In this document: one piece after another, positions 18,495 through 55,368 of the stretch
Position numbering within the stretch: position 1 is the first letter of the stretch
How the letters are laid out: each line of letters opens with the position of its first letter
NCBI GenBank assembly: GCA_019973575.1
Contig: BPUI01000001.1
Coordinates: 1,686,342 to 1,750,341, forward strand
DNA length: 64,000 nucleotides
Origin: Gemmatimonadetes bacterium T265
GTDB lineage: Bacteria; Gemmatimonadota; Gemmatimonadetes; Gemmatimonadales; Gemmatimonadaceae
Reading direction: 5' to 3'
The notes under the pieces: model-generated
Told to the model about the DNA's origin: nothing
What the model saw: the letters and a program-made list of their open reading frames with translations, nothing else
Database searches by the model: none
Translations under genes and position numbers: made by a program

Positions 18495-19642
18495 TGGCCC
18501 GACACCTCGGTGATCTCGCGCGACACGCCGGCGAGCATCGCGTCCATGCTGAAGCGCGCGGCGGCGTCGGCGCGCCCCGCCGCGGCCACCACCGCCCCGG
18601 CGTCGGTGCGCAGCAGGGCGGCGATTGCCGCGGCCAACCGCGCCGCGTCCTCGGGCGGCACGAGCGCGCCCGTCTCGCCGTCGCGCACGATCTCGACGGC
18701 GCCCCCGCCGCGCGTCGCGACGACCGGCCGGCCCGCCAGCATCCCCTCGACGATCACGCGCCCGAACGGCTCGGCGCTCACCGACGTGTGCACGACCACG
18801 TCCGCGACCCGCATGAGCGTCTCGACGTCGGCGCGGAAGCCGAGGAAGTGCACGCGGTCCGCGACGCCGAGCGCGGCGGCGCGTGCGCGCAGTCCGGTCG
18901 CGTAGTCCACCTCGCCGAAGAGCGCGTCGCCCACCACGAGCGCGTGCACGCCCGGCAGGCGCGGGAGCGCGTCGAGCAGGACGTGCTGCCCCTTCCACGG
19001 CGACAGCCGGCCGAACACACCGACCGCCGGCGCGTCGCCTAACCCGAGCGCCGCGCGCGCGGCCGCGGCGTCCGCGTCGCGCACGGCGGCGAACGCGGCC
19101 GCGTCGATGCCGTTGTACACCACGCGCACCTTGCCCGCGCGCCCGCCGCGCCCGACGAACGCGTCGGCGGTGGCGCACGAGTTCGCGACCACGCGCGCCG
19201 CGCGGCCGTTGGCGAGCGCGACGACCGCGCGCACGTTGGTGCGGCTGAAGTGCTCGCCGCTGAGGATGTCGCGCAGGTGCCAAATCACCGGGCGCCGCGC
19301 CGCCGCCCCGGCCGCGGTCGCGACGACGAACGCCTTCTGCGAGTTCGCGTAGATGACGTCGTGCGCGCGCGCGAGCCGCGCCACCGCCCGCGCGACGCCG
19401 AGCAGGCCGGCGAGCGCCGCGGGGCTCGGGACGGCGCTCTCGCGGCGGAGGCCGCGCGTCGCCGCGGACGCGGTCAGGAGCACCGTGCGCACGCCGGCCG
19501 CGCGGAGCCGCTCGCCGAACGGCCCGTCGGCCATGAGCGCGACCGTCGAGCTCCCGGCGTGGTGGCGCGCGATGTCGAGCAGCGACAGCTCCGCGCCGCC
19601 CAACACGCCGACGTGGTCGAGGAAGAGCACGCGGGCCGTCAC
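18491..19642 (-). CDS. Family 4 glycosyltransferase (GT-B fold)
   Basis: A 383-residue protein with ARVLFLDHVGVLGGAELSL at the N-terminus, WHLRDILSGEHFSRTN, NSCATADAF, and the donor half with VGVFGRLSPWKGQHVLL, VHTSVSAEPFGRVIVEGMLAG (EX7E motif) and a closing helix. GTG at 19642 overlaps the stop of the AsnB-GT4 fusion (GTGA). The Leu codon in LGLGD is TTA within a GTTAGGC heptamer. Confidence 0.88.
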   Translation of the reverse strand: MTARVLFLDHVGVLGGAELSLLDIARHHAGSSTVALMADGPFGERLRAAGVRTVLLTASAATRGLRRESAVPSPAALAGLLGVARAVARLARAHDVIYANSQKAFVVATAAGAAARRPVIWHLRDILSGEHFSRTNVRAVVALANGRAARVVANSCATADAFVGRGGRAGKVRVVYNGIDAAAFAAVRDADAAAARAALGLGDAPAVGVFGRLSPWKGQHVLLDALPRLPGVHALVVGDALFGEVDYATGLRARAAALGVADRVHFLGFRADVETLMRVADVVVHTSVSAEPFGRVIVEGMLAGRPVVATRGGGAVEIVRDGETGALVPPEDAARLAAAIAALLRTDAGAVVAAAGRADAAARFSMDAMLAGVSREITEVSGQ

Positions 19643-22600
19643 CGGAGCGCCTCCTCGTACACGGCGCGGATCTGCGCCGCGACCACGGGCCAGCTGTAGC
19701 GCTCGCGCGCGAAACGCTCGCACGCGGCCGCGTCGGGGAGCGGGAGCGTGCCGTCGAGGGCGCGGCCGATGCCGTCGGCGATCGCCGCGGGGCCGGTGGC
19801 GCCGAGGACGAGGTCGCGCGACAGCCCCTCGACCACCTCGGGCAGCGACCCGACGGGCGTGACGAGGGCCGGCGTCCCCGCCGCGAGCGATTCGGCCACG
19901 ATGAGGCCGAACCCTTCGAGCGCGACCGTCGGGACGACGCTGACGGTCGCCGCCCGGTACGCGAGCGGCAGGTCCTCGTCCGCGACGAAGCCTAACATTC
20001 GGACGCTGTCCTGCACGCCGAGCCCGTCGATGCGCCGCTGGAGCTCGCCGGCGATCGCACCCTTGCCGGCGATCAGGACGAGCACGTCGGGGACGCGGCG
20101 CCGGATCTCGGGTACGGCGTCGACCAGATCCTCGAGCCCCATCCGGCGCGCGAGCCGCCGCACGGCGAGCACGATCGGCTGGTCGGCGGGCCACCCGAGC
20201 CGGCGGCGCGCCTCGCCGCGCGACGCGCCGGTCGCGAACCGGTCGACGTCGACCGCGCCCGGGACCACGCGGATGCGGTCGCGCGGCACGCCGTAGCGCT
20301 CGTGCAGGACGCGTTCGAACGCGCGCGAGAGGACGACGCAGCGCGACGCGGTGCGGTATACGGCCGTCTCGAACCGGTGCTTCGTCCTGACGCTCGCCCA
20401 GCCCGCGCCCTCCACCTCCGACTCCAGCGCCCACGGCCCGTGGAAGTGCACGACGAGCGGCCGCCCGCGGAGCAGGCCGAGAGCGGGGTAGGTGTAGAGC
20501 GCGAAGTGCGAGACGACGAGCTTGCGTGTCGGGTCGGCCACGAACTGGCGCACCGCGTCGCGCGTCCGGCGCCAGCGCTCGCGCAGCGGCGCCGTTTGTG
20601 GGGCCATCGCCTCGACTGCGCCACCCGACGTCTGCACGACCGCGTCCGATCCTGCGACCACCCCCCGTACCCGAACGCCGACGTCCGGCAGCGACGCCGT
20701 GAGCCCGTGGTAGTAGCGGTTGAGTCCTCCCGCCTCCTCCCCGAACCACCCCATGCCGATCTGCATCGTCTCGATCGGCGCGGCGCCGGTGTGCCTAACG
20801 AATGGACGCGCCGGGCCGTCGGCGCCCTCCCGGAGCGCGTCGATCGGATCGTTGCGGCCGAGCGTACGGTCGATCGACTGCCTGGCCCACGTCTCGAGTA
20901 CGAGCAGCGTCCATAGCTGCTCGCCCCAGTCGCGGGCGCCGCGCGCGTGCTCGTCGAGCATCCGGCGCACGAACGCCGGCCGGACCCACCCGCGCCGCTG
21001 AAAGGTGCGGCCGTCGAGTACCGCGCGGAGGAGGGGCGCGTGGGCGGTGCTCATCCACTGCCCGACCGGCGCGACGAAGCCCCGCTTGCGACGGTAGATC
21101 ACATCGTGCGGCAGGTAGCGCTCGGCGAGCCGCTTCAGGAGGTACTTGGTCGCGTACCCCTTGAGCCGGACCGCGGTCGGGATCCGCGCGGCGAACTCGA
21201 TCAGCGCCCGGTCGAGGAAGGGCGAGCGCGCCTCGAGCGAGTGCGCCATCGTCGCCACGTCCATCTTGACGAGCAGCTGGTCGGGCAGGTAGGTCGCAAA
21301 GTCGCCGTAGAGCGCGCGGTCGACGTCGTCCTCGCCCGGCGCGCGGTCCCACACGGCGCCGTACAGCGCGTCCGGGTGCTCGGCGCCCTGGAGCGCCGGC
21401 CCGTACGCTTCGTCGCGAAACGACCGAAATCCACGGTCGTACACGAACGCGTCCCGTGCCGACCCGCGCCCCGCCTCTGCGAGCATCCAGGCCCGCCGCA
21501 GACGCCCGTGCGCCTGGCGGGCGAGCGCCCCGGCGATGACCGCGCGCGCGGCGGCCGGCGCGCGGCGGTAGGCGGCGGCGGCGCGCGCGACCACCGGGCG
21601 CGCGTAGCCGCCGAACACCTCGTCGCCGCCGTCGCCGTTCAGCGCGACCGTGACGTGCCGGCGGGCGAGGCGCGCGACGGCGTAGCTCGGCACGATCGAG
21701 ACGTCGGCGAGCGGCTGGCCGTAGTGCCAGACGATCTCGGGGAGCGCGCGCAGCTCGGACGGCCCGATCACGTCCTCGTGCAGGCGGACGCCCCAGCGCT
21801 GGGCCACGGCGCGCGCGTATTGCCGCTCGTCGAACTTCGGGTCGTCGAAACCGATCACGACCGCCTCGACGGCGCTGCTCGACTCCTGCGCCATCATCGA
21901 AACGATCAGACCGGAGTCCACACCTCCCGAGAGGAAGGCGCCGAGCGGGACGTCGCTGACGAGGCGCTTGCGGACGGACGCGCGCAGCAGCGTGTCCGTC
22001 TGTTCCAGAACGTCCTGCTCCGACTCGCGCAGCTTCGGGGCGAACAGCAGGTCCCAGTAGCGGGTGACCGTCGTGGTCCCGCGGTCCGCGTCGAACACGA
22101 GGGCGTGTGCGGGCGGTAGGTGCTCGACGCCTTCGTACATCGTCATCGGCGCCGGCACGGCCTGGTACGTCAGGTACGCGTCGAGCGCGGCGGTGCTCAC
22201 ATCGGGCGTGCACGGGAGGAGCTCGAGTACCGCGTGCAACGTGGAGGCGAAGTAGAGGCTTCCGCCCCGACGACTGAAGTAGAGCGGCTTCTTGCCGACG
22301 CGGTCGCGGGCGGCGTACAGCGTGCGGGCGTGCGCGTCCCAGATCGCGAACGCGAACATCCCGTCGACGCGCGCCAGCAGCCCCTCCCACCCCCACTCGG
22401 CGAAGCCGTGGAGCAGCACCTCGGAGTCGGTGTGCGATTCGAAGTGGTGACGCGCCTCGAGCGCGCGGCGCAGCTCGCGGAAGTTGTAGATCTCGCCGTT
22501 GAAGACGAGCGTTAGGCGACCGTCGCCGGCCTGCATCGGCTGGTGGCCGGCGGCGCTGAGGTCGAGGATCGAAAGGCGGCGGAAGCCGAACGCGACGTCC

Positions 22601-22719
22601 TCCCCGACGCTCAAGCCCGCGTCGTCGGGCCCGCGGTGCCGCATCACCTCGCAGGCGCGCGCGAGGCGCGCCTCGAGGCTGCGCGACGCGGGCCCGACTA
22701 CGCCGACGATGCCACACAT
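19639..22719 (-). CDS. Asparagine synthetase-glycosyltransferase fusion (AsnB + GT4)
   Basis: One uninterrupted 1026-residue frame joins two complete enzymes. Residues 1-640 are a class II glutamine-hydrolysing asparagine synthetase: Cys2 nucleophile (MCGIVG), RHRGPDD, NGEIYN, the PPi-loop SGGVDSG at 264-270 and NGDGGDE at 361-367. Residues 652-1026 are a full GT4 glycosyltransferase: MQIGMGWFGEEAGGLNRYYHGL, VVHFHGPW, RIRVVPGAVDVDRF, VRRLARRMGLEDLV and VALEGFGLIVAESLAAG. The linker (about 640-651) contains a GTTAGGC heptamer. An ATG at 20766 could serve as an internal start for the GT4 half. AsnB paralogues in polysaccharide loci are thought to amidate sugar acids; here the amidation and sugar transfer could be coupled. 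A lost stop codon between former neighbours is the simplest origin. Confidence 0.88.
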   Translation of the reverse strand: MCGIVGVVGPASRSLEARLARACEVMRHRGPDDAGLSVGEDVAFGFRRLSILDLSAAGHQPMQAGDGRLTLVFNGEIYNFRELRRALEARHHFESHTDSEVLLHGFAEWGWEGLLARVDGMFAFAIWDAHARTLYAARDRVGKKPLYFSRRGGSLYFASTLHAVLELLPCTPDVSTAALDAYLTYQAVPAPMTMYEGVEHLPPAHALVFDADRGTTTVTRYWDLLFAPKLRESEQDVLEQTDTLLRASVRKRLVSDVPLGAFLSGGVDSGLIVSMMAQESSSAVEAVVIGFDDPKFDERQYARAVAQRWGVRLHEDVIGPSELRALPEIVWHYGQPLADVSIVPSYAVARLARRHVTVALNGDGGDEVFGGYARPVVARAAAAYRRAPAAARAVIAGALARQAHGRLRRAWMLAEAGRGSARDAFVYDRGFRSFRDEAYGPALQGAEHPDALYGAVWDRAPGEDDVDRALYGDFATYLPDQLLVKMDVATMAHSLEARSPFLDRALIEFAARIPTAVRLKGYATKYLLKRLAERYLPHDVIYRRKRGFVAPVGQWMSTAHAPLLRAVLDGRTFQRRGWVRPAFVRRMLDEHARGARDWGEQLWTLLVLETWARQSIDRTLGRNDPIDALREGADGPARPFVRHTGAAPIETMQIGMGWFGEEAGGLNRYYHGLTASLPDVGVRVRGVVAGSDAVVQTSGGAVEAMAPQTAPLRERWRRTRDAVRQFVADPTRKLVVSHFALYTYPALGLLRGRPLVVHFHGPWALESEVEGAGWASVRTKHRFETAVYRTASRCVVLSRAFERVLHERYGVPRDRIRVVPGAVDVDRFATGASRGEARRRLGWPADQPIVLAVRRLARRMGLEDLVDAVPEIRRRVPDVLVLIAGKGAIAGELQRRIDGLGVQDSVRMLGFVADEDLPLAYRAATVSVVPTVALEGFGLIVAESLAAGTPALVTPVGSLPEVVEGLSRDLVLGATGPAAIADGIGRALDGTLPLPDAAACERFARERYSWPVVAAQIRAVYEEALR

Positions 22720-43967: not shown

Positions 43968-43977
43968 TTACCGCTCC
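43961..43977 (-). terminator. Hairpin whose loop is the stop codon of the MauE-thioredoxin gene
   Basis: GGAGCGG (43961-43967) and CCGCTCC (43971-43977) form perfect seven-base arms around a three-base loop, and the loop is exactly the TAA stop (minus strand). No T tract follows, so it may protect the 3' end or slow translation rather than act as an intrinsic terminator. Confidence 0.35.
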
Positions 43978-44978
43978 GCCGATGTCTCGAGCGCGGCACG
44001 TGCGTCCTCACGTGCATCGTGTTGCACGTTCGGAAAGAACGCCCGGTTGAAGCGCGTCAGGAATTCGGGCGCGATGTTCCCCACCCACTTCGACGTGATG
44101 ACGCCGTGCTCGATCAGCACCGTGGTCGGGACCGCCGATACCAGGCGGTCCAGCCGGGACCGTCGGAGGGAGACGACGGGGAAGCGGATCCCATGCTCCG
44201 CGACAAATCCCTGCCGGGCCTCCGCCGGGGCGCCCACGACGCCGACGACGTCCGGGAGCTCGGGAGACCCGTGAACCACGTTCAGGACGCGCACCCATTG
44301 ATGGCAGAACGGGCAGTCGGTGCCGAGATACGCGACCAACCGTTCCTGGGGCTCCGAGGACACGGCTCCAGCGGCCCACGCCGCACGCCACCGCCGTCCG
44401 GGCTTGAGCGGGTTCAGGTCGATCAGCGGCCGGCCGTTCGCGCTCTCGTGATGCTGTGCGACACCGGTGAGCACCCCTGTGACTACAGCGAGTCCGACCA
44501 CGAGGCACACCTTCCAGAAGGAGCCCGGCTCGCGAGCGCCGGCCGTCCAGGCCAGCAGCAGAAGCGTAGCGTAGAGCGCGTTCAACCCGACGCTCTGGGC
44601 GACCGACGGCGTGAAGTACCCACCGTAGCAGCCGCAGTCCGTGACTCGTCCGCTCCGCACGCTCCAGAAGCTGGCAGCGCCGAGGAGCAGGACGCCGACG
44701 GCGGTGACCGGCAGGGTAGGTCCGGGTGTCAGCCCGACGAGCAGCGCGACGCCGAGGCCCGTCTCGACGGCCGCCACGGCGACGACCGTGGCCGCGAGGA
44801 GGCGGGCCGGGATCCAGCCGAGTCGCGAAAGGTGCGCCTGGAAGTTCAGTGGTGCGAGGGCTTTGACCGCGCCGGCATAGACGAACACCGCCCCGACGAA
44901 CGCCGGGCCGAGGCGGGCCGCCATCGTCAGCTTCAATAGAGCCGGCGCGATGGCCGACGTAGCAGTGATGACGCTCAT
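43968..44978 (-). CDS. MauE/DoxX-type membrane protein fused to a thioredoxin-like domain
   Basis: A 336-residue protein. Residues 1-175 form a MauE-like bundle of four to five membrane helices with the family's cysteine motif DCGCYGG at 114-120; residues 205-320 form a thioredoxin-like domain with active-site CPFC at 222-225 and a cis-Pro region (SAVPTTVLIE). MauE is needed for the disulfide-rich subunit of methylamine dehydrogenase in methylotrophs, so a role in disulfide formation or reduction outside the cytoplasm is plausible. It is divergent from the nucleotidyltransferase-kinase-PqqD genes with only 77 bases between, and the product of that cluster is cysteine-rich, so the two are probably linked. 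Start ATG at 44978. Confidence 0.83.
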   Translation of the reverse strand: MSVITATSAIAPALLKLTMAARLGPAFVGAVFVYAGAVKALAPLNFQAHLSRLGWIPARLLAATVVAVAAVETGLGVALLVGLTPGPTLPVTAVGVLLLGAASFWSVRSGRVTDCGCYGGYFTPSVAQSVGLNALYATLLLLAWTAGAREPGSFWKVCLVVGLAVVTGVLTGVAQHHESANGRPLIDLNPLKPGRRWRAAWAAGAVSSEPQERLVAYLGTDCPFCHQWVRVLNVVHGSPELPDVVGVVGAPAEARQGFVAEHGIRFPVVSLRRSRLDRLVSAVPTTVLIEHGVITSKWVGNIAPEFLTRFNRAFFPNVQHDAREDARAALETSAER

Positions 44979-45055
44979 GGGGTCACAAGGCCGGCGTGCG
45001 GAGTCGAAATGCAGAAGCGATGCGGAACCTACATGCCGACCAACGCGCCCGTAGC

Positions 45056-46234
45056 ATGAGCGTCGCGGTGGCTCGCTCGCCGTCGCCGGAGGAGCGGCTG
45101 GTCCTCGCGACCTGCCGCACGCCGATGACCGGCGCGGCGCGACGGCGCGCGGAGGCGTTGCTCGACGGCCCGCTCGACTGGCAGGCGGTGTTCGCGTGCG
45201 CCGGGCGGTGGCAGGTGGAGCCGGTCGCATTCACCAACCTGCTCGCGATCGCCGGAGAAGCGCTGCCCCAGGCGACGCGCCAGGAAGCGACGACCCGTTG
45301 CTGGACGGCACGCGCGCGATCGTGGAAGCTAACAACCGTTCTGCTCGACCTGCTCCGCCTGTTAGAGGGCGCCGGCATTCCCGTCATCGTCCTGAAAGGG
45401 CCTGCGATCGGCCTCGTGGCCTACGGCGACGTGACAATGCGGACCTTCAACGATCTCGACCTGCTGGTCCAACCCGCCGACGTTCGCCAGGCCCGTTCGC
45501 TGCTCGTCGACGCGGGTTACAGGGCGTATTACGATCCGCGCCAGGAGCTGTCCCGATTGAAGGGTCAACACCCGCTCGAGTTCTCGGACGGCCGCACGCA
45601 CGTCGATCTTCACACGACGCTTTTCTCTCGCTACCTGAAGCTCGACATCGACGCCGCCGCCGCGTGGCGCGACGCGCGCACGGTGCCGTGCCTCGATTCG
45701 ACCATTCGCGTGCTCGCGCGGCACCACCTCTACGTGTACCTGTGCGCTCACGGCGCAAAACATCAGTGGCAGCTGTTCCGCTGGGTGTGCGACGTCGCGC
45801 AACTGGACGCCTCGCTCGAGCCGACAGACGTGGAGCGCATCACGGCCCTCGCCACCACGGTCGGGGCACGTCGCCTGGTCGCGTTGGGGACGCGGCTCGC
45901 CGGCCGGATATCTGGCGGTGCGCCGACGAACGTCGACGCCGACCGCATGGAATCGGAGGCGGCGACGCGTGCGCTCGTCCGGCAGGTCGAAACCGCCTGG
46001 TTCGGCGCGCCGGCCCGGGGTGATGGCGGACTCCTGGCCGTGCTCCATCCGTCGCTGCGTGGCCTTGGCTACTGGATGGCCGCCCGCGAGCGGGTGTGGG
46101 ATCGTCTGATCGCTCCGATGCGGCTCGCCGTCTCGTCGTCGGCCCGTGACGCGCGCGCCGGCTCTCTACGCGGCCTCTGGCGACCGTTGCGGCTGGCAGC
46201 CGGTGTGGTGCAACGCGCCGTGCTGCACAGGTAG
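45056..46234 (+). CDS. Nucleotidyltransferase family protein (NTP_transf_5 type)
   Basis: A 392-residue protein (ATG at 45056; ATG at 45020 or GTG at 44996 would add 12 or 20 residues). The core VIVLKGPAIGLVAYGD (110-125) and RTFNDLDLLVQP (129-140) is the signature of the NTP_transf_5 family, with the D-x-D pair of a nucleotidyltransferase fold. Members regularly accompany PqqD-like proteins and HPr-kinase-like proteins in peptide-modification and glycan clusters. Target unknown; transfer of a nucleotide to the peptide or to a sugar is possible. First gene of a plus-strand operon of at least three. Confidence 0.85.
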   Translation: MSVAVARSPSPEERLVLATCRTPMTGAARRRAEALLDGPLDWQAVFACAGRWQVEPVAFTNLLAIAGEALPQATRQEATTRCWTARARSWKLTTVLLDLLRLLEGAGIPVIVLKGPAIGLVAYGDVTMRTFNDLDLLVQPADVRQARSLLVDAGYRAYYDPRQELSRLKGQHPLEFSDGRTHVDLHTTLFSRYLKLDIDAAAAWRDARTVPCLDSTIRVLARHHLYVYLCAHGAKHQWQLFRWVCDVAQLDASLEPTDVERITALATTVGARRLVALGTRLAGRISGGAPTNVDADRMESEAATRALVRQVETAWFGAPARGDGGLLAVLHPSLRGLGYWMAARERVWDRLIAPMRLAVSSSARDARAGSLRGLWRPLRLAAGVVQRAVLHR

Positions 46235-46246
46235 CAATCACGCCAC

Positions 46247-47128
46247 ATGCCGGACCTCTATTTGGACTTCGACGGACGCCAGCTCCGCGTTCGCACCGAC
46301 GTGCCGGAAGTGCACGACCACATCGCGCGCGTGCACGCGCCCATGCTCGTGCCCGAAGTCACTCGACTGGTGGGAGACCTGCTGGTCGACGCCGTGCCGG
46401 GTGGGCATCGCATGCGCGGCGCGTCCGAACTCACGCTGCAGGGCAGGGCCGACGACCTGTTCATCCACATCAAGGCGGACATCATCTACCAGATGATCAC
46501 GTCGCGGCCCGATCTGCTCTGGCTTCACGCAGGCGCGGTAGAGAAGGACGGGGTCGCGGTGGTCGTCTCCGGACCTCCAGGGCGGGGCAAGAGCACGCTC
46601 GTGACGTTGCTCGCCCGGGCGGGATGGCGCCTCATGTCGGACGACGTCCTCGCGCTGGACATGTGCGCCGACGTCGTCGTCCCGTTCCCGCAGCTCCCGA
46701 ATCCGCGCGTCTTCCCAGGGCGGGAGGTGACCGGCGACGACTTCTACGCACTTCAACGGGAGCTGGCCGTCATGCCGGCCGAGGCGTTCCATCGGGAGCG
46801 GACCCGCTTGGGCGCCGTGATCTTTCCCTGTTTCCAGCCGGGGGCCGAGCCGGATCTGGTCCGCCGCCGACCGGGTGAGGGCGCCCTGGACATGTTGCGC
46901 AATTGCGTGAATGTTGCAGACCACAAGGCGGCGGCGGTGGCCCGGGCGGCCGGCCTCGCCCGCGTCGTCCCGATGTACAGCCTGACGTACGGCGTGGCCG
47001 CCTCCGCTGTTGACCAGATTCAGCGCCTTCTCGACTCCGTGCTCGTCCACGCCGCATCAATGTGCGACGGGGTCGGCCCCGCAGTTGCATCACTCCCACC
47101 GAAACCCACCCCATCGGAGTCGACATGA
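46247..47128 (+). CDS. HPr-kinase-related P-loop protein (HprK-rel-A type)
   Basis: A 293-residue protein. DLLWLHAGAVEKDGVAVVVSG leads into Walker A GPPGRGKST at 109-117, followed by GWRLMSDDVLALD at 127-137, the arrangement of the HprK-related family (kinase fold of HPr serine kinase, without the HPr partner). It lies 12 bases after the nucleotidyltransferase gene and overlaps the PqqD-domain gene by four bases (ATGA). Lasso-peptide clusters of Firmicutes use a related kinase to phosphorylate the peptide C-terminus, so a peptide is a plausible substrate here, as an inference. No canonical substrate-binding loop is recognisable. Confidence 0.85.
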   Translation: MPDLYLDFDGRQLRVRTDVPEVHDHIARVHAPMLVPEVTRLVGDLLVDAVPGGHRMRGASELTLQGRADDLFIHIKADIIYQMITSRPDLLWLHAGAVEKDGVAVVVSGPPGRGKSTLVTLLARAGWRLMSDDVLALDMCADVVVPFPQLPNPRVFPGREVTGDDFYALQRELAVMPAEAFHRERTRLGAVIFPCFQPGAEPDLVRRRPGEGALDMLRNCVNVADHKAAAVARAAGLARVVPMYSLTYGVAASAVDQIQRLLDSVLVHAASMCDGVGPAVASLPPKPTPSEST

Positions 47129-47676
47129 TGTTCCTGCCCCGCCCCCGTAATGGCCTGCGTCGCCATCGTATCGAGGATCAGGTCCTGGTCTACGATGCGC
47201 GTACCGACCGGACGCACCTCCTCGACCACGCTACGGGAACCGTCCTCGACTTGCTCGAGGAGGGCGGGCGACCGCCCGAGGCGCTCGTTGTCGAACTCGG
47301 GCGTCGGATTGACCGGCCTGCCGATGACGCTCTGGTGACGCTGGCGCTCGATGAGCTGCGCAAAGCGGAGCTGCTCGACGAGGACCGGTCCCCGGCTCCG
47401 CTGAACGAGGTCAGCCGCCGTCAGCTGCTGCGGCGCGCCGGCCTGGTCGGGGCGACGGCGCTCCTCGTTCCGACGATCGTGTCGCTGACGGCGAACCCAT
47501 TGTATGCGGCGAGTCCGTCGCCGTGTTCACAGTCTTCGGGTAGGCTGGCTGGATGTAAGTGCAGTATGCTCACCGGAAGCAGCGTTTGCGCGAGCGGCTG
47601 CTGTAAGTCGAACGGCAGCTCTGGCAATGGCGAGAACACCTGCGTGGCTAAAGGTTCCGGGATCCAGTGCTACTGA
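47125..47676 (+). CDS. PqqD-domain protein fused to twin-arginine-like segment and eight-cysteine C-terminal domain
   Basis: A 183-residue protein; ATG at 47125 overlaps the kinase stop. Residues 8-85 form a PqqD/RRE-like winged-helix domain (YDARTDRTHLLDHATGTVLDLLEEGG, ALDELRKAELLDE). At 97-105 comes SRRQLLRRA, resembling a Tat motif, followed by a hydrophobic stretch (106-123) and a possible signal-peptidase site near PLYAAS (125-130). The last 54 residues contain cysteines at 134, 144, 146, 155, 159, 160, 173 and 182 in a Gly/Ser-rich sequence, the spacing of a small disulfide-bonded or otherwise cross-linked peptide. PqqD proteins normally bind a separate precursor's leader; here the binding domain and a precursor-like tail seem to be one chain. 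Function not established. Confidence 0.8.
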   Translation: MMFLPRPRNGLRRHRIEDQVLVYDARTDRTHLLDHATGTVLDLLEEGGRPPEALVVELGRRIDRPADDALVTLALDELRKAELLDEDRSPAPLNEVSRRQLLRRAGLVGATALLVPTIVSLTANPLYAASPSPCSQSSGRLAGCKCSMLTGSSVCASGCCKSNGSSGNGENTCVAKGSGIQCY

Positions 47677-47762
47677 GGCTGAGTCGAGAGGTATAACTCG
47701 GTACCCGGGAGCGCCGGTGGTCAAGCACTTCGAACGACCTGTCAATTTGCCCTCATCTAGCT

Positions 47763-48096
47763 GACCGGGTTACAGCTTGATGCCGGGCAGCGCTCCGCGC
47801 TGCTCATCCTCGACGAGGCGACGAGTGCGCTCGACTCGGAGAACGAGCGGCGCATCCAGGCGGCGATCGCCGAACTGCACGGGCGCCCCACGATCCTCGT
47901 CATCACGCACCGCCTCGCGGCCGTGCGCGACGCGGACCTGATCCACGTGGTCGAAGGCGGGCGCGTGGTGGAGTCGGGCACGTGGGACGCGTTGCTGGCC
48001 GACGCGGGGCGGTTCCGCGCGCTCTGCGCCGCGCAGGCGATCGTCGCCGACGCTGCAGCCGAGCACGGAGCGGTCGTCGGCGAGCCGGTCGCGTAA
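47763..48096 (+). pseudogene. C-terminal remnant of an ABC exporter ATPase
   Basis: An open stretch after a TAG at 47758-47760 translates as the last ~110 residues of an exporter ATPase: AGQRSALLILDEATSALD (Walker B with D-loop), then TILVITHRLAAVRDADLIHV (switch His) and a normal C-terminus. Walker A, the membrane domain and most of the signature motif are absent: the sequence jumps from LQLDAGQ straight to the strand before Walker B, as if about 15 residues and everything upstream were deleted. No usable start codon is near. It sits directly behind the PqqD-domain gene, where an exporter of the peptide would be expected. Its TAA overlaps the next gene's ATG. Confidence 0.8.
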
Positions 48097-49640
48097 TGGC
48101 GCGGCGCCCGCGCGGGGGCGGCCGCGGGCCGCGCGGCGGCGCGCGCTTCAGCCGTGCGCGCTTCGCGCTCGTCGCGGCCGGCGTCGCGGCCACGGGCGCC
48201 GCGGGAGTGGCCACGGTCATCGCCGGGCGCACGCCTGGCGACGAACGCGTCGACCCGCTCGCGCTCGCCGCGGTGGCCGCGCTCACCATCGACGTTCGCG
48301 CGACGCGCCTCGCACCGGGCGATACGGCCCGGGTCGTTGCGACGGCGCGGAACGTGGTCGACCAACCGCTCCCGGGCCGGCTGGTCACCTGGACGACGAG
48401 CGATTCGGGCGTCGTCACGGTCACCCCGCGCGGCGACGTGCGCGCCGTCGCGCCCGGCACGGCCGTGCTCGAGGCGGCGTGTCAGGGGCAGTCGACCGAC
48501 GTCGCGATCACCGTCGTGGGCCGGGTCGACACGGTCGGCGTGCGCCCGGGCGACGAGCTGCAGGTGCTCGTCGCGGCGGCGGAGGAAGGCACGGTCTTCG
48601 TCATCAGGGCCGGCGTGCACCACGGCGACAGCGTCGTGCCGAAGAACGGCATGACCTTCGTCGGCGAGCCCGGCGCGGTGCTCACCGGCGACGACCGCGC
48701 GCCATTCGCGTTCTCGGGCAACGCGGACCCGTACCCGCGCAACGTCGTCATCCGCGACCTCGTGATCGAGCACTACGCCTCGCCCGCGCAGGCGGGCGCG
48801 GTGCGCGCCGACGTCGAGGCGGGCGCGTGGACCGTCGAGGACTGCGAGGTGCGCGACAACGCCGGGGGCGGGATCCTCATCGGGCCGCGCGCGCGCATCC
48901 TGCGCAACCGCGTGCACCACAACGGGCAGATCGGCGTGTCAGGCAGCGGCGACGGCGTGCTCGTCGAAGGGAACGAGATCGCCTACAACAACCCGCGCGC
49001 CGAGTACGACATGTACTGGGAGGCCGGGGGGACGAAGTTCGCGCGCACGCGCGACCTCGTCGTGCGGGGCAACTTCGTCCACCACAACCACGGCCCGGGG
49101 CTGTGGACGGACATCGACAACGTGCGCACGCTCTACGAGCGCAACCGCGTCGAGGACAACGCCGAGTCGGGGATCTTCCACGAGATCGGGTACGCGGCCG
49201 TGATCCGCCACAACGAGTCGCGGCGGAACGGCGCGGGCGCGGTGCCGCGCGGGTGGGTGTCGGGGGCGGGGATCCTCGTCAACTCGTCGTCGGACGTGGA
49301 GATCTACGGGAACCTCGTCGAGGGCAACCACAACGGGATCACCGCGATCGAGGCGAACCGCGGGCGCGGGGCGTACGGACCGTACGTGCTGCGCGACCTG
49401 TACGTGCACGACAACACGGTCGCGATGCGCGAGGGGGCCACCGGGGTCGCGACGTCGGGGTGGCGGCGGCTCGTCGACCGCGCGACGTACGCGGCGCACC
49501 ACAACCGCTTCACGGCGAACACTTACCGGCTCGGTCCCAACCGGCAATACTTCCGCTGGAGTAACACGTGGCTCACGGCGGCGGAGTGGCGGGCGGCGGG
49601 GCAGGACGTGACGGGCACGTTCGCGCCCGACGCCCGGTGA
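48096..49640 (+). CDS. Right-handed parallel beta-helix protein with Ig-like domain
   Basis: A 514-residue protein. Basic N-terminus and a hydrophobic Ala/Val/Gly-rich helix (about 22-44) for membrane anchoring or export; residues 55-145 form a BIG2-type Ig-like domain (SDSGVVTVTPRGDVRAVAPG); residues 150-510 are beta-helix repeats of polysaccharide-lyase/inverting hydrolase type, rich in Asn turns (VRDNAGGGILIG, RVHHNGQIGVSG, VHHNHGPGLWTD). Such proteins cleave or bind acidic polysaccharides, or act as epimerases. TAATG overlap with the ABC remnant suggests the two once belonged to one operon. Catalytic residues cannot be named with confidence. Confidence 0.82.
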   Translation: MARRPRGGGRGPRGGARFSRARFALVAAGVAATGAAGVATVIAGRTPGDERVDPLALAAVAALTIDVRATRLAPGDTARVVATARNVVDQPLPGRLVTWTTSDSGVVTVTPRGDVRAVAPGTAVLEAACQGQSTDVAITVVGRVDTVGVRPGDELQVLVAAAEEGTVFVIRAGVHHGDSVVPKNGMTFVGEPGAVLTGDDRAPFAFSGNADPYPRNVVIRDLVIEHYASPAQAGAVRADVEAGAWTVEDCEVRDNAGGGILIGPRARILRNRVHHNGQIGVSGSGDGVLVEGNEIAYNNPRAEYDMYWEAGGTKFARTRDLVVRGNFVHHNHGPGLWTDIDNVRTLYERNRVEDNAESGIFHEIGYAAVIRHNESRRNGAGAVPRGWVSGAGILVNSSSDVEIYGNLVEGNHNGITAIEANRGRGAYGPYVLRDLYVHDNTVAMREGATGVATSGWRRLVDRATYAAHHNRFTANTYRLGPNRQYFRWSNTWLTAAEWRAAGQDVTGTFAPDAR

Positions 49641-49662: not shown

Positions 49663-51474
49663 ATGCTTCCTCTCTGCCATGCCGCGGCGGTCGCCGTCGT
49701 GACGACGTGCGCCGCCCGCGCGACGCCCGACACGGTGACGCCGCCGGCGCGGGCCGTCGGCGCACGCCCAACGGACAGCGCTGCGGCGTCGGGGGGTCCG
49801 GTGGAGATGCTCGGGGTGGTGTCGGCGGCTCAGCTCCGCGACGGCCTCGGCTTCGCGGTCGAGCCGAGCCGTCCCTGGGAACTGCAGCTCGCCCGGGACG
49901 TCGGCGCGCGCGAGGTCCGGATGCAGTTCGGCTGGAACGACGTCGAGCCTGCGGCCGGCCGACTGGTGCTGACCCCGGTGATGCGCGAGGCGCTCGCAAC
50001 GGCCGCCCGACTCGGCCTGCGGCCGCTGATCGTCGCGGCGTACGGACCCGCGTCGACGCGCCTGCCGCTGTTCACGCTGCGCGCCCCGGCGGCGCGTGGC
50101 GACAGCGTGCTGTCGCTCGAGTTGTCGCCCGCGCTCGCCGACGTCCGGCGCGGGCATTCCTACGCCCAAGCCCCCGACGGATCGCAGTTGGTCGCCGAAG
50201 GCTACTGGGCCTACCAGGGCGCGTACGTCTCGTCGGTCGATCGCGACTCGAACCGCGTCGTACTCGCCGCGCCGCTGACCCGGACTCTGAACGCCGGGGA
50301 GCGCGTGGCGATCAACAACCGCCTCTACCCGCCGCCGGTCGCCGGTGCGCCTAACGATTCCGGACTCGCCGCGTACGTGCGGTACGCGCGGTTTCTGGCG
50401 GCGCAGCTCGCGGGCGCCGGGCTCGCCGGCCACGTCGAGCTCTGGAACGAGCCGGCCTGGGCGCACGACCGGTGGGACGGCGGCGAGGGGTGCTTCTTCG
50501 CGTCCGGCGTCGAGCGGAGTACCTGCCGCTCGATCAACTACGACCTCGCGAAGGCGCTGCTCGGCACCGCCCCTCCGGGCGGCGTCCGGTACACGTGGGG
50601 CGGGACACACAAGACCGGGTTCGCGACGCTCATCACCGGAGCGTCCGGCGGCATCCGCACCGCAGTCACGCGCGAGCAGATCGAAGGGAGCGTGAGCGAG
50701 GAATCCTTCCACCCGTACGGCCGCACCCCGGAGTGGCACGCGTGGAACCCGGACTGCCTGTCGCGGCCCGGGGTCGCCAACGTGTTTGCCACCTGCGCGC
50801 TCGTCGGTACGAACCCGACGTCGAACTTCAAGTGGGCGCGCAAAGTTGCGATCGACCATCTCAACCTCGACGGCTGGACGATCGACCAGACCGTGTCGGA
50901 AGCCGGAATCCGGATCGCCGACGCGGCGACCAAGGCGCGCTACCTCCTGCGTTTCTACCTCGCGCACCACGCGCTGGGGTTCCGGCGGATCGACTTCTAC
51001 CGCCTGGCCGATGCGCCCGCGTCGGGCCCCAACTACGGCGTCGTCGACGCGAACACCCGCGAGCCGATGCTGCCGTACCGGGCGCTGCAGGCCTTGATGA
51101 ATCAGTTGGACGACGTCGGAACCGCCCCGCCGGCGGAGTACGACAACGGTGGCCTACCGACGGTCGTCAAGGCGCAGACGACCTGGCCCGTCACCACGGT
51201 CGTGGTCGCGGGCCGCCGGTCCGGCGCTGTTCGGAACACCATGCTCCTTACTCTCTGGCAGCGGCCCTACCCGAAAACGGGCCGCGAGGAGTTCGAGCAG
51301 ATCTCCCGGCCCGACCCGGGGCGCGTTGCGGTCCGCGTGCCGACCGGGTACCACGTCGTCCGCGCATGGTCGCTCGTCGATCAGAGCCCCGTCGCGGTCG
51401 TGCCCGTCCGGGCGGGAATCGCCGAGGTGCGCGTGACGGACGATCCGGTTGCGATGCGCTTTGCGCCACGATAG
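49663..51474 (+). CDS. Secreted GH-clan-A-like protein (GH39-type resemblance)
   Basis: A 603-residue protein. The N-terminus is short and hydrophobic with a possible lipobox (VVTTC at about 12-16) but lacks the usual basic residues, so the start may be wrong. The barrel shows REVRMQFGWNDVEP, LRPLIVAAYG, and HVELWNEPAW at about residue 263, in which Asn-Glu-Pro holds the general acid/base Glu of clan A glycosidases; a nucleophile candidate is in TVSEAGIR at about 410. The C-terminal 110 residues form a beta-sandwich. It may process the polysaccharide made by the neighbouring loci. Family number is tentative. The CCTAAC in GAPNDS belongs to the recurrent heptamer. Confidence 0.7.
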   Translation: MLPLCHAAAVAVVTTCAARATPDTVTPPARAVGARPTDSAAASGGPVEMLGVVSAAQLRDGLGFAVEPSRPWELQLARDVGAREVRMQFGWNDVEPAAGRLVLTPVMREALATAARLGLRPLIVAAYGPASTRLPLFTLRAPAARGDSVLSLELSPALADVRRGHSYAQAPDGSQLVAEGYWAYQGAYVSSVDRDSNRVVLAAPLTRTLNAGERVAINNRLYPPPVAGAPNDSGLAAYVRYARFLAAQLAGAGLAGHVELWNEPAWAHDRWDGGEGCFFASGVERSTCRSINYDLAKALLGTAPPGGVRYTWGGTHKTGFATLITGASGGIRTAVTREQIEGSVSEESFHPYGRTPEWHAWNPDCLSRPGVANVFATCALVGTNPTSNFKWARKVAIDHLNLDGWTIDQTVSEAGIRIADAATKARYLLRFYLAHHALGFRRIDFYRLADAPASGPNYGVVDANTREPMLPYRALQALMNQLDDVGTAPPAEYDNGGLPTVVKAQTTWPVTTVVVAGRRSGAVRNTMLLTLWQRPYPKTGREEFEQISRPDPGRVAVRVPTGYHVVRAWSLVDQSPVAVVPVRAGIAEVRVTDDPVAMRFAPR

Positions 51475-54915: not shown

Positions 54916-55368
54916 TCAGACGCGCCGGATGACGGTGTACGGCCCCGTGCCCGCGGCCAGGTCGTCCACCACGCGGCCGTCGACCTCGACCCAGGCGTGC
55001 GCGGCGAACGGCTGGGCGCGCACGCCGATGACGACGTCGGCCGGCACGCCGCGCCGCCGCAGCACGACGGCGCACGCCGCCGCCCGCTGCAGGCAGGCGA
55101 CGTGAGTGACCTGGCCGCGGAGCGCGCGGTCGAGGGCGGTCCGCGTCTCCGCGATCACGGCGCGGCGCCGGTCGGGCGGGATGGGGCGGACGCCGCGCTG
55201 GACGGCGAGGAGGCGCTCGACGCCGCGCAGCCCCGCCGCCGCCAGCACCCCGCGCACGAGGACGAGCGCGCCCCACGCGTGACCGGCCCGGGCGACCGCG
55301 CGCAGCGGCCGGCGTCGCGCGGGAGGGGCCGCCGTCGCGGCGACCTCCATCAGCTCGGGACGGCGCAT
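54916..55368 (-). CDS. Lasso peptide biosynthesis B2-like protein (transglutaminase fold)
   Basis: A 150-residue protein. CLQRAAACAVVLRRRGVPA at 92-110 gives the catalytic Cys92 on its helix, FAAHAWVEVDG at 121-131 gives His124, and an Asp follows at 135-136: the Cys-His-Asp triad of the Transglut_core3/lasso-B2 family. VIGVRAQPF is also diagnostic. In lasso clusters B2 removes the leader peptide with the help of the PqqD-like B1. Here no B1, no cyclase and no precursor is adjacent; such stand-alone B2 genes occur in polysaccharide loci with unknown role. The PqqD-domain gene 7.5 kb away on the other strand is the only candidate partner. Confidence 0.85.
   Translation of the reverse strand: MRRPELMEVAATAAPPARRRPLRAVARAGHAWGALVLVRGVLAAAGLRGVERLLAVQRGVRPIPPDRRRAVIAETRTALDRALRGQVTHVACLQRAAACAVVLRRRGVPADVVIGVRAQPFAAHAWVEVDGRVVDDLAAGTGPYTVIRRV

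Follow-up and report, generated by a model that had tools for sequence, protein, structure and literature searches.

A candidate RiPP-like precursor combining a PqqD/RRE domain, a Tat-type signal and a variable cysteine tail in Gemmatimonadota and Acidobacteriota

Described systems and the genes of the locus

In the discovery of RiPP clusters, the RRE is used as the handle and the precursor is sought as a separate small gene. In borosins, the core peptide and the modification machinery share one polypeptide; the fused part is a methyltransferase and not an RRE, and there is no Tat signal. The LPP clusters, which contain a kinase, a nucleotidyltransferase and an RRE, yield polyphosphopeptides, are located in polysaccharide loci and were reported as limited to Bacillota (Popov et al. 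2026, PMC13381572). Their kinase, LppK, phosphorylates Ser3 of the LPP core, beside the cut site (PMC13381572). In pseudomycoidin, a Ser is phosphorylated by a kinase and hexoses are added by a nucleotidyltransferase (PMC9266682). In both LPP and paeninodin/pseudomycoidin, a separate RRE delivers the precursor whose Ser gets modified (PMC13381572, PMC9266682). No description of an RRE-precursor fusion or of a PqqD protein with a Tat signal was found in the open-access literature. A 2025 survey showed that 21% of PqqD-annotated proteins were larger than a discrete RRE and otherwise unannotated (PMC12710340), and proteins of the RRE-Tat-tail type may be among these, unexplained.

The window analysed was a stretch of 64,000 nucleotides from Gemmatimonadetes bacterium T265. 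On its forward strand, an NTP_transf_5 nucleotidyltransferase with an NDLD catalytic-type motif (44996..46234; PF14907, E 2e-53) was followed by an HprK-like kinase with HAG, Walker A (GPPGRGKST) and SDD motifs (46247..47128; TIGR04352, E 1e-25), and the kinase by a gene at 47125..47676 whose 183-aa product consists of an RRE (PqqD) domain, a Tat-type signal and a cysteine tail and is a candidate self-contained precursor. The sequence-only reading had picked out this 183-residue frame, and its length and coordinates were exactly reproduced. The start codon overlaps the kinase stop as ATGA and is preceded by GGAG 5 nt ahead, so that the two genes are probably translated together. With this coupled start, the GGAG and homologues in Gemmatimonadota and Acidobacteriota, the frame is a real gene. 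Promoter and terminator scans of the locus gave nothing informative.

The system has an RRE, an HprK-like kinase and an NTP transferase in common with LPP, as well as the lack of a lasso cyclase. Both also have a constant N-terminus and a variable C-terminus, predicted signal-peptidase-type processing and a polysaccharide setting. Of the features that define LPP, the HprK-like kinase was found in the cluster, and so was an NTP transferase by its PF14907 match, the putative counterpart of LppN. The LPP leader motif YxxPxVLxHQxIxFETxxS was absent from the 183-aa protein, in which no [YW]xxP could be read either. LPP clusters have a discrete RRE with a separate precursor, whereas the RRE was fused to the tail in 60/60 proteins of the present family. 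LPP clusters also have an MsbA-like exporter and a leader peptidase of their own that is SpI-like, whereas Tat export is predicted for the 183-aa protein; clustering of the neighbours showed no SpI-like peptidase among the conserved ones, and the only ABC exporter gene in the window was an ATPase remnant. The family core is usually Cys-rich with the Cys presumably paired, unlike that of LPP.

The kinase, the nucleotidyltransferase and an RRE of the B1 fold are likewise common to paeninodin/pseudomycoidin, but the module has no macrolactam cyclase or B2 and its precursor would not be separate. Membership of the lasso class was rejected: no B2-type match was found in 10/22 genomes or among the neighbours, and the B2-like gene of the window lies in another operon. 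The best curated models for the RRE protein and the kinase were TIGR04353 and TIGR04352 (HprK_rel_A), and both scored under the cut-off (for the kinase, 90 bits against a curated cut-off of 200). The TIGR04353 model spans only the RRE, with no Tat-Cys extension. The family was not filed under LPP, lasso or HPr-rel-A because defining features were absent or curated cut-offs were missed. By analogy, the system is best described as working like the LPP type with an altered layout. The sequence-only reading had treated the protein without its kinase and nucleotidyltransferase partners, the adjacent MauE-thioredoxin gene and LPP as the closest known family, and its account is extended here on these points.

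The partner genes were conserved across the family. A kinase was found within 2.5 kb of the family gene in 39/60 loci (same strand in 34) and a nucleotidyltransferase within 3.5 kb in 38/60 (same strand in 36), while both were near in 29/60, partners being missing near some loci partly because of contig ends. By rough pattern searches, a DxD motif was retained in most nucleotidyltransferases, and HAG, Walker A and SD[DE] in most kinases. The kinase-RRE-nucleotidyltransferase trio recurs in two phyla. When the neighbours were clustered, polysaccharide and housekeeping genes were found and no further dedicated RiPP enzyme was conserved nearby. The conserved kinase and nucleotidyltransferase point to Ser phosphorylation or decoration, beyond cross-linking alone.

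The locus lies in a polysaccharide region with many glycosyltransferases. Directly downstream of the RRE gene, a start-less stretch (47761..48040, forward strand; LDEATSALDSE...THRLAAVRDADLI) was read by eye from its translation as the C-terminal end of an exporter-type ABC ATPase. Pfam gave no match for it at E 1e-5. It is a probable pseudogene by its sequence and may be what is left of an exporter that the system once had. A 603-aa protein without a Pfam match is encoded at 49663-51474 on the forward strand, next to a protein that combines a right-handed beta-helix and a bacterial Ig-like domain (47982-49640). A lasso peptide B2-like protease (54916-55368, reverse strand; NF033537, E 3e-23) was located in a glycosyltransferase/O-antigen ligase operon, and no lasso precursor or dedicated cyclase was seen near it. 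An asparagine synthase and a group 1 glycosyltransferase were fused in one 1026-aa frame at 19639-22719 on the reverse strand.

The family, its RRE domain and the Tat-type signal

A single-sequence search found relatives in 22/395 Gemmatimonadota genomes, some of the weakest matches being doubtful, and one relative, with a six-Cys tail, is encoded near 1041000 on NZ_CP007129.1, a replicon of Gemmatirosa kalamazoonensis. A profile search of Acidobacteriota (E 1e-6) gave matches in 47/297 genomes. About half of these were clearly full-length, and a single genome had as many as six. One acidobacterial genome (G594; L120, L145) had six profile matches, including three tandem genes with differing Cys frameworks that, by their sequences, look as in a diversified peptide set. 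The family comparison covered 60 proteins from sampled genomes of Gemmatimonadota and Acidobacteriota, and the RRE-tail fusion was present in all of them. An alignment of 19 sequences showed 10/183 invariant positions, R98 and R99 among them.

The N-terminal domain (residues 1-85, 47125..47379, forward strand) has three strands and three helices. TIGR04353 (HPr-rel-A PqqD) matched the 183-aa protein with E 6e-7 and 30.2 bits against a curated cut-off of 35, and relatives passed the Pfam PqqD cut-off of 23.4 bits with 34.9, 32.1 and 36.7. AlphaFold2, run with an MSA of 19 family sequences, gave the three-strand, three-helix RRE fold with a pLDDT of ~97 across residues 11-80. Foldseek with this RRE model ranked TbiB1, a lasso peptide B1 protein, first, followed by other RRE domains, and VIA-align gave Z scores of 10.8 for TbiB1 and 10.5 for a second lasso B1; 6jx3 is a lasso B1 match of the domain. 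The TbiB1 structure was solved together with its leader peptide. A PDB sequence search with the 183-aa protein returned only TbiB1 (E 0.14) and one chance match. The resemblance to PqqD, on which the sequence-only reading depended, is significant in both profile and fold, and the structure prediction suggested there returned the RRE fold for this domain.

The PqqD domain is followed by SRRQLLRRAG at residues 97-106, where the SRRQLLRRA motif had been placed. The predicted Tat-type signal (residues 97-128, 47413..47508, forward strand) comprises SRRQLLRR, a hydrophobic helix, Pro116 and an AxA-like site, LYA/AS. The twin arginine was kept in 60/60 family proteins, of which 53/60 fitted [STN]RRx-hydrophobic-hydrophobic, and Pro116 was invariant together with R98 and R99 in the 19-sequence alignment. 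An AxA-type site was present in 55/60, and tatC is encoded in the genome. The features of a Tat substrate, namely twin arginine, hydrophobic stretch, AxA-type site and TatC in the genome, were thus all present in the family. Pfam TAT_signal matched the 183-aa protein with E 0.056, and the Pfam and NCBIfam Tat models stayed below their cut-offs; one relative (L058) exceeded a Tat model cut-off with 21.3 against 16.7. The Tat assignment rests on the family because the curated models are weak for the 183-aa protein alone. The Tat-like segment suggested in the sequence-only reading is therefore upheld by the twin arginine, the AxA-type site and TatC, and was poorly recognised by curated models in the protein itself. 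A Ser/Thr was found within 4 residues past the AxA site in 51/55 proteins, including most with Cys-free tails, and immediately N-terminal to the first Cys in 34/53 Cys-bearing tails.

The cysteine tail and the MauE-thioredoxin gene

The predicted released peptide (residues 129-183, 47509..47673, forward strand) begins ASPSPC and has eight Cys in the framework C-C-C-C-CC-C-C. The eight positions listed in the sequence-only reading (134, 144, 146, 155, 159, 160, 173 and 182) were all reproduced. Eight Cys in 54 residues against a family background of 1.3% gave p ~6e-7, and across the family Cys made up ~16% of the tail against 1.3% of the part before it. With tail starts placed without reference to Cys, the number of tail Cys was 2, 6, 8, 10 or 12 in 52/53 Cys-bearing tails; the sole odd tail (L036) belongs to a broken locus, where an in-frame stop occurs close to the end of the contig. 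The binomial p for parity was 6e-15 assuming independent rows, and such p-values are too strong because the sequences are related; among distinct Cys frameworks, 14/15 were even. Even tail Cys numbers are the expected mark of disulfide pairing.

Between proteins with 0.85-1.0 PqqD identity, mean identity was 0.95 in the Tat part and 0.46 in the tail (0.37 without aligned Cys). At this level of comparison, the PqqD part is conserved and the tail hypervariable across the family, the outcome that a check of homologues was expected to give under the sequence-only reading. Even Cys numbers, the signal-peptidase site and the conserved Ser/Thr show that the tail is also not random. Cys was absent from the tail in 7/60 relatives, several of these tails being Asn/Gln-rich. 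Three proteins of one genus (L039, L040 and L041) have Cys-free Asn/Gln-rich tails (GQNNNNQGQNQQ) in which the RR, the AxA site and the following Ser are kept, and two of their genes sit close together.

AlphaFold2 gave no confident structure for the tail of the 183-aa protein (pLDDT 44-52). For four acidobacterial tails with the framework C-C-CC-C-C, the best PDB sequence matches were solely inhibitor-cystine-knot-like peptides. The model of an acidobacterial C-C-CC-C-C tail (pLDDT 92-93) resembles inhibitor-cystine-knot peptides with Foldseek E >0.1, which is suggestive only of a knottin-like fold in some acidobacterial tails. A knottin assignment was unsupported for the 183-aa protein, in which the Cys order is C-C-C-C-CC-C-C and not C-C-CC-C-C and no confident model was obtained.

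A fusion of a MauE-like membrane protein and a thioredoxin-like domain, of a type linked to disulfide chemistry and bearing the motifs DCGCYGG and CPFC, is encoded at 43968..44978 on the reverse strand (PF07291, E 1e-13), with its start set at an internal Met, divergent from the nucleotidyltransferase-kinase-RRE run. In Gemmatimonadaceae, five Cys-tail loci had a MauE-thioredoxin gene within 4 kb; none was near the Cys-free loci or the single Cys-tail gene that stands isolated (Fisher p 0.048, few loci). Strong MauE matches were limited to 22/395 Gemmatimonadota genomes. MauE was common in acidobacterial genomes and adjoined a family gene only once among the fetched loci, beside a 12-Cys tail. 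A general MauE linkage was rejected on account of this one adjacent case outside Gemmatimonadaceae, which arose independently. The decRiPPter report places mauE homologues next to candidate precursors that contain 8 Cys or more, as at the present locus; the mauE families presented there are from Streptomyces clusters, and the passage on them describes no RRE-precursor fusion (PMC7794033).

Proposed mechanism and alternative explanations

The 183-aa protein is probably a RiPP-like precursor that has an RRE of its own in cis; it would undergo modification in the cytoplasm, be exported by Tat and, once cleaved, yield a disulfide-rich peptide. Binding in cis, phosphorylation, export, processing and disulfide formation, and with them the biological role of the protein, are proposed as follows. 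The N-terminal RRE would remain cytoplasmic and draw both partner enzymes, HprK-like kinase and NTP_transf_5, to its own fused tail. The likeliest target of phosphorylation would be the conserved Ser/Thr just past the future cleavage site (SPSP in the 183-aa protein), and sugar or nucleotide transfer onto the Ser/Thr may follow. The twin-arginine signal would then carry the C-terminus out, signal peptidase would cleave at the AxA-type site (LYA/AS) to free the Cys-rich tail, and the Cys would pair, in Gemmatimonadaceae perhaps aided by the adjacent MauE-thioredoxin. The variable tail and the conserved PqqD part favour the precursor with its own recognition domain put forward in the sequence-only reading. 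The exported, cross-linked tail proposed there agrees with the even Cys numbers and the signal-peptidase site, through which processing and disulfides are suggested, but not with the 7/60 Cys-free tails. More tentatively, the proteins may form a RiPP class spanning at least two phyla, in which the RRE and Tat parts serve as leader and the fast-evolving disulfide core, sometimes knottin-like, additionally receives phosphate or sugar groups close to its N-terminus.

Discrete RREs of lasso and LPP systems work in trans, several genomes have more than one copy of the gene, and tails are short or Cys-free in 7/60 proteins, all of which would suit a membrane-anchored RRE that acts in trans, with the helix as an uncleaved anchor, the Cys tail as a domain with a structural or sensing role in the periplasm, and another, unlinked peptide as substrate. 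This is unlikely, since the surroundings of the loci showed no further conserved gene for a small peptide (ORFs <110 aa covered in part), an AxA-type site is present in 55/60 and a purely structural domain is not expected to evolve fastest. Still less likely is a Tat-secreted disulfide mini-protein in which PqqD is an export chaperone only, retaining the precursor until it is ready, and the kinase and nucleotidyltransferase serve, for example, exopolysaccharide synthesis: polysaccharide genes adjoin the module and the MauE linkage suits plain oxidative folding, but the trio is conserved in two phyla and acts on peptides in characterised systems. It is hardly credible that the locus is a decaying lasso-peptide cluster with B1 joined by chance to a leftover ORF. 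The ABC ATPase remnant immediately downstream and the B2-like gene 7 kb off would fit such decay, but the fusion and the invariant RR are kept in 60 proteins, 10/22 module-bearing genomes lack any B2-type match and the module has no lasso cyclase or precursor; a fusion conserved in two phyla contradicts this explanation.

If the precursor reading is true, a precursor hidden within an RRE protein would make its cluster appear to have no substrate. Through the fusion, the kinase/nucleotidyltransferase pair would gain a candidate substrate, and RiPP enzymes would be connected with Tat export and disulfide folding. The variable disulfide-type peptides of the family would then form a natural library in soil phyla.
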